Source of the DNA: Candidatus Latescibacterota bacterium | GTDB taxonomy: Bacteria > JAAXHH01 > JABIQT01 | Direction of reading: 5' to 3' | Assembly (NCBI GenBank): GCA_018667995.1 | Contig: JABIQT010001125.1 | Location: 1 to 13,100, forward strand | DNA: 13,100 bases | Position numbers and translations under genes: made by a program | Shown: positions 10,740-13,100 of the stretch, piece by piece | Position numbering within the stretch: position 1 is the stretch's first letter | How the letters are laid out: each line of letters opens with the position of its first letter | The notes under the pieces: model-generated | Database searches by the model: none | What the model saw: only the letters and a program-made list of their open reading frames with translations | What the model was told of the DNA's origin: nothing

Positions 10740-10762
10740 CGGCTGACATCCAGTGTCAGCCG
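10740..10762. repeat. Perfect 9-bp inverted repeat between divergent genes
   Basis: CGGCTGACA (10740-10748), 5-nt centre TCCAG, TGTCAGCCG (10754-10762). On neither strand is it followed by a real T-run, so it is a poor intrinsic terminator. It lies 37 bp upstream of the 38-codon ORF start and 23 bp upstream of the fusion gene start, a typical operator position. On the minus strand CTGACA could also act as a -35 box with TTTATG 17 bp downstream, a weak promoter for the small ORF. As RNA it would fold into a stable hairpin in the leader of the fusion gene. Confidence 0.55.
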
Positions 10763-10785: not shown

Positions 10786-12894
10786 ATGCGTATTGGGATA
10801 GATGCCACGTGTCTACCATCCGCAATCGCCGGTGCAGGACGCTATATAATCGGTCTTCTCAACGGCCTTGCTGAGATCAACACAAAGCACGATTTTTTCG
10901 TATTTATTAAGCACTCCGATCGGCTGCCGAGCCTGCCAGACGACGCGGCCGGATTTCGGTATATAGCCATTCCTTGGGAAGCTCGCCCTACAAGATTGAT
11001 CTGGGAATTGGCGGGCGCAAGAAGCGTGATTCGTCGGTACGGTCTGGATGTCTGGCATGCCCCACATTATATCATGCCCATTGGGGCAGACGCCAGTACA
11101 GTGGTGACGCTTCATGACATGGCGTTCTTCCTCTATCCAGAGCTATTTTCAGTATCGAAGCGCAGCCTGTTTCGGTGGGCTGCAAGACGAGCCGTCAAAC
11201 ATGCCGATCAGATCATCGCTACTTCCAATGCCACCCGGGATGAGGCTGTTAATCTCCTCGATCTGAACGCAGCAAAGACCACAGTCATTCATCATGGCGT
11301 GGACCCTGTCTTCGCGCCGGAGTCCCGACGTCAGGAATGGCGTCCTGCATGGACAAATGACGGTACCCCAGCCCCCTATATCCTCACCATAGGAACGACT
11401 GACACTCGGAAGAATCTACATACGCTCATTGATGCGTATCGCCTCCTCGTTGAAAGAGATAATCCACCCGAACACCTCGTTATTGCAGGTCAGCCTGGAA
11501 CAGCCCACCAAGATCTGATTCACCAAATAGCTGCCACAGGCCTTGCCCACAGGATTCATGTTACAGGTTACGTTGACGAGAGCGACCTACCCAGCCTCTA
11601 TGGCGGCGCGAGCCTCTACGTCGGCCCATCCGTGTATGAAGGTTTCGGATTTCCAGCCGTAGAAGCCATGGCGTGCGGCACCCCAGTTGTCGCCTCGCCC
11701 ATGCCCTCAATGATGGAAACTGGCGCAACCCCACGTGTGGTGTACCGAACCAAAGACAGTTTCGCATGGTATGATAACATCTCCGGCGCACTCGATATGT
11801 CGCATGCAGGCGGCTGGCAAACACACACTGTCCGGAACTGGGCCGTCATGGCGGAGGAGACGGTAGCAGTGTACGAGGCGAGCGCAGGGAAACTTGCAGT
11901 ACATCTCACCTCATCTCGGAATGCCTCCCGGCCGTCCGCGCATCCAATTCACACGAACGGTGTGGCGGATGCTGTGCTTAAAACCATCACCTACGCCGAT
12001 CTCTTCGATTATCCACTTGATTCCCACGAGATTCAAAGAGGCATGATCGGATCCTGCGGTTCGATGGAACAGGTCCGTGCGGCGCTACAAACCCTCCTTT
12101 TCTCCGGCGCGATCGAAGCAAGAGACGGCCTCTATGGTTTGAAAGAGCGCACCCACCTGTTCACGGAACGTGCTCAACGAAACGCTCAGGCCGATGTGTT
12201 GTTTCAGAGCAATAAGACCAGCATTTACCGAATTTGCATGTTTCCATTTGTCCGGATGGTTTCGCTCTCTGGAGCTATAGCGCACGGAAACTGTACCGAA
12301 TCCAGTGACATCGATCTCTTCATGGTCGTGGCATCTCGCCGACTCTGGATGGTATATGCGCTATTAGCCGTATACGCGCTGCTGGTGAGAAAACGCGATC
12401 TCCTGTGCATGAACTACCTGATAGGCGATACAGACTACGAGATAGCAGACCAGGAACTCTACACCGCACTCCAAATCTCCGCACTCCGTCCCATTTTTGG
12501 GTGGGACCATTATAGGCGCTTTGCCCTGGCCAATAGTTGGGTACAGCAGCATATGCCCCAGTGGAACGGACATTCTTCCGGCCCCGACCCCTTCTCAGGA
12601 ATCAAACTGTCCCGATGGTCGGCTGGCGTGAAGAGAAGTACGGAACTGATCCTTAGTTTGCCAATTTTCGGCGGACTGGAATGGTTAGTGCATCGATTCT
12701 ACAGTCGCAGAATAATGAACTCCATGCGCAAGGGTAGGAATGATGGTATTCACATCACTCGCAGCAGGATCAAGCTACATACAAACGATCACAGTAGACG
12801 TGTTCAGACTCTATTCGAGAGTCGATACGCTCAGGTCATCAGTGAAAGTCAACCATCGCAAAACACCCGCATGGAAAGACAGAAATCGCTTTGA
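10786..12894 (+). CDS. Fusion protein: GT4 glycosyltransferase plus nucleotidyltransferase-like domain
   Basis: This is a 702-residue protein from ATG 10786. Residues 1-370 form a GT4 (GT-B fold) glycosyltransferase: MRIGIDATCL with a glycine-rich GAGRY loop, VWHAPHY, VVTLHDMAF, IHHGVD, ILTIGTTDTRKN, VTGYVDESDLPSLY and the catalytic E-x7-E (Glu285, Glu293 in YEGFGFPAVEA). Such domains transfer a sugar from a nucleotide sugar, often to polysaccharide or lipid-linked acceptors. A low-complexity linker (371-393) leads to a winged-helix-like segment (394-455, AVLKTITYADLFDYPLDSHE). A nucleotidyltransferase-like region follows with SGAIAHGNCTESSDIDLFMV (495-514; Asp508 and Asp510), a short hydrophobic helix (521-534) and LCMNYLIGD. 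It resembles stand-alone uncharacterised nucleotidyltransferase-domain proteins. An upstream GTG (10753) lies in the palindrome, and ATG 10786 fits family starts better, though neither has a good ribosome site. Sugar, acceptor and second activity are unknown. Confidence 0.85.
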   Translation: MRIGIDATCLPSAIAGAGRYIIGLLNGLAEINTKHDFFVFIKHSDRLPSLPDDAAGFRYIAIPWEARPTRLIWELAGARSVIRRYGLDVWHAPHYIMPIGADASTVVTLHDMAFFLYPELFSVSKRSLFRWAARRAVKHADQIIATSNATRDEAVNLLDLNAAKTTVIHHGVDPVFAPESRRQEWRPAWTNDGTPAPYILTIGTTDTRKNLHTLIDAYRLLVERDNPPEHLVIAGQPGTAHQDLIHQIAATGLAHRIHVTGYVDESDLPSLYGGASLYVGPSVYEGFGFPAVEAMACGTPVVASPMPSMMETGATPRVVYRTKDSFAWYDNISGALDMSHAGGWQTHTVRNWAVMAEETVAVYEASAGKLAVHLTSSRNASRPSAHPIHTNGVADAVLKTITYADLFDYPLDSHEIQRGMIGSCGSMEQVRAALQTLLFSGAIEARDGLYGLKERTHLFTERAQRNAQADVLFQSNKTSIYRICMFPFVRMVSLSGAIAHGNCTESSDIDLFMVVASRRLWMVYALLAVYALLVRKRDLLCMNYLIGDTDYEIADQELYTALQISALRPIFGWDHYRRFALANSWVQQHMPQWNGHSSGPDPFSGIKLSRWSAGVKRSTELILSLPIFGGLEWLVHRFYSRRIMNSMRKGRNDGIHITRSRIKLHTNDHSRRVQTLFESRYAQVISESQPSQNTRMERQKSL

Positions 12895-12975: not shown

Positions 12976-13100
12976 ATGACTGAGGTTTTGTTCACACATT
13001 CGTACTTCCTTCGTTTCGATCAGAAACAGTGGGAAACAATGCAGCCGTATCCACCACTGGGGACCTTGTACGCTGCCGCATACGTTCGGCAGGCGAACTA
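12976..13100 (+). CDS. N-terminus of a B12-binding radical SAM protein (partial)
   Basis: An ATG at 12976 opens a frame that runs off the window after 41 residues. It begins MTEVLFTHSYFLRFD and continues QWETMQPYPPLGTLYAAAYV. A beta-strand followed by a P-P-L-G-x-x-x-x-A helix is the usual start of the N-terminal cobalamin-binding (Rossmann-like) domain of B12-dependent radical SAM proteins, in which the 4Fe-4S CxxxCxxC motif comes much later. The core is therefore not visible, and substrate or reaction (methyl transfer, ring formation or another radical step) cannot be judged. GAGG (12961-12964) lies 11 nt upstream as a fair ribosome site. The gene follows the fusion gene by 81 bp on the same strand, so co-transcription is likely. 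Confidence 0.7.
   Translation, partial: MTEVLFTHSYFLRFDQKQWETMQPYPPLGTLYAAAYVRQAN

Follow-up and report, generated by a model that had tools for sequence, protein, structure and literature searches.

The stretch of DNA analysed here (hereafter, the window) comprises 13,100 nt of a Candidatus Latescibacterota genome and contains, downstream of gltB-gltD, a forward-strand gene (10786-12894) whose 702 codons run in one open frame from ATG to the TGA stop, with zero internal stops. The encoded 702-aa protein encompasses an N-terminal GT4 (GT-B) glycosyltransferase domain (residues 1-368; 10786-11889), a linker (residues 369-389; 11890-11952), a winged-helix domain (residues 390-457; 11953-12156), a nucleotidyltransferase-fold core (residues 468-585; 12187-12540) and a C-terminal tail predicted to be mostly helical (residues 586-702; 12541-12891). 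It is followed, on the same strand, by the start of a B12-type radical-SAM gene (12976-13100), which is cut by the contig end and whose product agrees at 34 of 41 residues with the start of the corresponding protein (rSAM1) in the homologous locus L012. The layout agrees with a previous sequence-only reading of the window, which had claimed one uninterrupted frame joining a GT4 domain, a linker and a region with a DxD motif. The list of open reading frames includes an alternative GTG start at 10753, but the ATG at 10786 is preferred because relatives start at a conserved MRIG(I/M)DAT. A short hairpin, GGCTGACA-TCCAG-TGTCAGCC, was read by eye at 10742-10762, just 5' of this ATG.

The N-terminal half matched the Pfam models PF00534 (E 5.8e-29; 101.3 bits, cut-off 26.4) and PF13439 (E 1.7e-20; 74.2 bits, cut-off 28.5). 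With both GT-B domains above the Pfam cut-off, residues 1-368 are assigned as a complete GT4 domain, and the translation places its E-x7-E motif at E285 and E293 (11638-11664), with seven residues between them; these scores and the translation corroborate the complete GT4 domain and motif positions proposed in the sequence-only reading. The GT-B pair and the E-x7-E motif are common to GT4 enzymes such as MshA, PimA and the MSMEG_0565 family (TIGR04047). Unlike these enzymes, the window protein carries a C-terminal winged helix and a nucleotidyltransferase-fold domain, and it scores far under the NCBIfam cut-offs of the GT4 families compared. In four Balneolia homologues (L015, L016, L019 and L020) an Asp replaces the second Glu of the motif, and the fused gene of L087 has its GT4 half split across two frames (233 and 466 aa).

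The earlier reading had also described a winged-helix region and a nucleotidyltransferase-like region with a DxD motif in the C-terminal half, and had suggested a Pfam search for both fused domains. Whereas the GT4 part is well above its cut-offs in that search, the nucleotidyltransferase part of the window protein falls below them (Polbeta, E 0.02; NTP_transf_2, E 0.26), scoring 12-16 bits against curated cut-offs of 21.0 and 26.9. A distant stand-alone homologue, L047, barely passes the NTP_transf_2 cut-off (PF01909; 21.1 versus 21.0 bits). A search with the family profile against the PDB returned as sole hits members of the MNT/DrrA/minimal nucleotidyltransferase group, all of them weak (best E 0.013). 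The predicted structure (pLDDT 83.6) presented fold matches of the nucleotidyltransferase core to MntA and ANT(4'), with a Z of 7.9 and an rmsd of 3.0 over 110 residues for ANT(4') 6un8. The profile, the predicted structure, the fold matches and L047 hence uphold the nucleotidyltransferase-like assignment, and the winged helix is supported by VIA-align matches of residues 390-457 to winged-helix proteins, with Z up to 10.

Proteins with the Pol beta-like fold canonically present a glycine between strands 1 and 2, a DxD motif on one strand and a third metal-binding acid. In the alignment of the C-terminal domain, the conserved glycine (G496) is found in 46 of 46 rows and both aspartates of D508-x-D510 (12307-12315) in 45 of 45, and C541-x-N543 and N583-x-W585 are likewise invariant (C541, N543, N583 and W585; 45 of 45) across these very divergent rows. 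The invariance of these seven residues suggests that the active site is under selection. At the second position of the GS/GG motif the residue differs between rows, and no third invariant acid was present anywhere in the domain across the 45-46 aligned rows, leaving two of the three canonical acids; judging from the order of the predicted strands, Asn543 would sit where the third is expected. The presence of two canonical acids makes nucleotidyl transfer plausible on sequence grounds. RelA/SpoT synthetases lacking one canonical acid and Tam41, which keeps only one, are still enzymes (review, PMC11646218), and nucleotidyltransferase activity is hence possible despite the missing acid.

Likeness to ANT(4')/kanamycin nucleotidyltransferase is one of fold only: identity is 11%, the window protein is fused to a GT4 domain, and no third acid was found in it. 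MNT/MntA type VII antitoxins, which gave the best Foldseek and profile matches, have the glycine and DxD core in common with the window protein, but the latter adds a winged helix and a C-terminal tail and lies in a biosynthetic neighbourhood. The winged helix more likely serves structure or dimerisation than the reading of DNA. The linker preceding it is variable in the alignment and has a pLDDT below 50 in the full-length model; the pTM of this model is just 0.52, and no interface between the GT4 and C-terminal halves is hence predicted. The tail contains the motif IKLHTNDH (residues 662-669; 12769-12792), invariant in all ten A3 alignment rows, the window included.

Homologues were searched for using the C-terminal domain as query. 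A profile search yielded matches in 16 of 384 genomes, and in-depth searches of two phyla returned matches, a few of them weak, in 19 of 82 and 11 of 40 genomes; a plasmid search with the same domain returned zero matches. The rows kept include 22 fused genes, 8 separate adjacent pairs, about 10 stand-alone genes and 4 cut by contig edges. Fused rows come from the window's phylum, Ignavibacteria, Bacteroidetes, Balneolia and one further phylum. All three genomes of the window's order having the C-terminal domain carry the fused form, and in L012-L020 (Ignavibacteria, Bacteroidetes, Balneolia and an uncultured bacterium of the window's order) the genes are fused wherever the contig permits judgement, L018 being cut by a contig edge. 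The 8 split cases belong to a different phylum, in which the two genes are adjacent, in the same order and orientation and -107 to 263 nt apart. Stand-alone homologues of the C-terminal domain exist without an adjoining GT4 gene, indicating that this domain does not always depend on a GT4 partner.

The trees of the two halves recover the same main groups. Two clades are well supported, one of 14 fused rows and one of 9 rows, in which 8 are fused and the remaining one lies at a contig edge; on the C-terminal tree, the fused state requires three changes, against a mean of 15 when labels are shuffled. The distance matrices of the two halves are strongly correlated (Mantel r 0.96 over 28 rows, a value reached in 0 of 2000 permutations), and a correlation of 0.85 was obtained among the 8 split pairs. 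This congruence is partly owed to shared vertical descent. The data demonstrate that the pairing of the GT4 domain with the winged-helix/nucleotidyltransferase-fold region is old and conserved.

The gene neighbourhood outlines a cluster conserved across phyla. A B12-type radical-SAM gene lies downstream of the fusion in the window and in six other loci (L011, L012, L013, L014, L040 and L084), and also downstream of split or stand-alone genes (L100, L101, L102 and L045). The cluster further includes a second and a third B12-type radical-SAM gene, two methyltransferases, another GT4 and an amidohydrolase, and a polysaccharide flippase-like gene is found in L023 and next to some stand-alone copies. 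Upstream, gltD is present in L012 and gltB-gltD in L023, there with further frames in between (gltB was read by eye in L023). The radical-SAM proteins encoded nearby combine a B12-binding with a radical-SAM domain, as in HpnJ-type clusters. The top NCBIfam match of rSAM1 is HpnJ, at 139.9 bits, and because this is far below the cut-off of 577.6 bits no pathway is assigned. A second contig of the window's genome, C984 (L119), opens within the third radical-SAM gene (rSAM3, sharing 70% identity with its L023 counterpart), with a methyltransferase and a second GT4 (both 46% identical to those of L023); further on lie an MT2-like methyltransferase, an amidohydrolase gene and a frame resembling a GT2. 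Judging by gene order, the window's cluster probably continues on this contig.

The conservation of the fusion across phyla and the side-by-side genes in the same order elsewhere support a functional coupling of the domains; the fusion clearly points to a shared function, and both parts probably serve a single pathway. This bears out the coupling that the earlier reading had inferred; its choice between a shared product and control of the transferase is not decided by sequence. From the observed architecture and conservation we infer each catalytic step of the following scheme. Our preferred reading, which we put forward tentatively, is that of a two-part enzyme which adds a sugar to an acceptor and afterwards a nucleotidyl group to the same glycoconjugate intermediate. 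The GT4 half would transfer a sugar to a lipid-linked or small-molecule acceptor, and the C-terminal half would bind NTP and Mg2+ at D508/D510 and transfer a nucleotidyl group to the resulting intermediate, possibly onto a sugar hydroxyl, as aminoglycoside nucleotidyltransferases do. The fusion would hold the intermediate between both sites.

The main rival reading, which we regard as possible though unlikely, holds that the nucleotidyltransferase-fold part, rather than being a transferase, binds nucleotides or has a regulatory role, switching the GT4 half or positioning it, in line with the lack of an invariant third acid, the variable GS/GG motif and the scores below the Pfam cut-off. The DxD motif and the invariant Cys, Asn, Asn and Trp are nonetheless kept in all 45 rows, some of them stand-alone genes with no GT4 next to them, where control of this GT4 cannot explain the conservation. 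It is improbable that the nucleotidyltransferase part AMPylates a protein, be it itself or a partner, and thereby controls glycosyl transfer in the manner of MntA and DrrA: both rank among the closest matches in sequence and fold, but these are weak and limited to the core, and no HEPN toxin partner was recognised among the family-named neighbours, which are biosynthetic, in the neighbourhoods examined, where several neighbours carry no assignment. A role in anti-phage defence or another conflict system is very improbable, since the weak PADLOC match to PDC-S09 (2.3e-4) and the match to the GT4-conflict model PF20706 are set against higher scores for general GT4 models and a conserved, biosynthetic neighbourhood; a paper on conflict systems contained nothing specific to the GT4-conflict lead. 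Finally, an artefact merging two genes through an assembly join or frameshift at the linker, for which the earlier reading had suggested a check and which a draft of 1165 contigs might invite, is refuted by independent genomes carrying the same fusion, two others from the order and further ones from unrelated phyla, and by the presence of gltD upstream in L012 and L023 as well.

According to the sequence-only reading, this domain order is not known from a characterised protein, and the literature searched gave no description of the fusion or the cluster, although one may exist elsewhere. Both domain types are already known; it is their fusion and the cluster that are apparently undescribed. 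Returning to the preferred two-part enzyme, a broader and more speculative proposal, which we hold as doubtful, is that the undescribed cluster starts with a conserved bifunctional glycosyltransferase-nucleotidyltransferase and makes a radical-SAM-tailored, nucleotidylated glycoconjugate common to several phyla. The fusion gives access to this cluster and its up to three B12-type radical-SAM enzymes, and to the question of how a nucleotidyltransferase fold functions, or is put to another use, when it has two acids rather than three.

Members of the Balneolales and of the f275 family present different neighbours. In L016, L018 and L020, a small gene adjoins the fusion on the opposite strand; the one in L016 has a weak match to APH(3') kinase (16.4 bits, cut-off 205).
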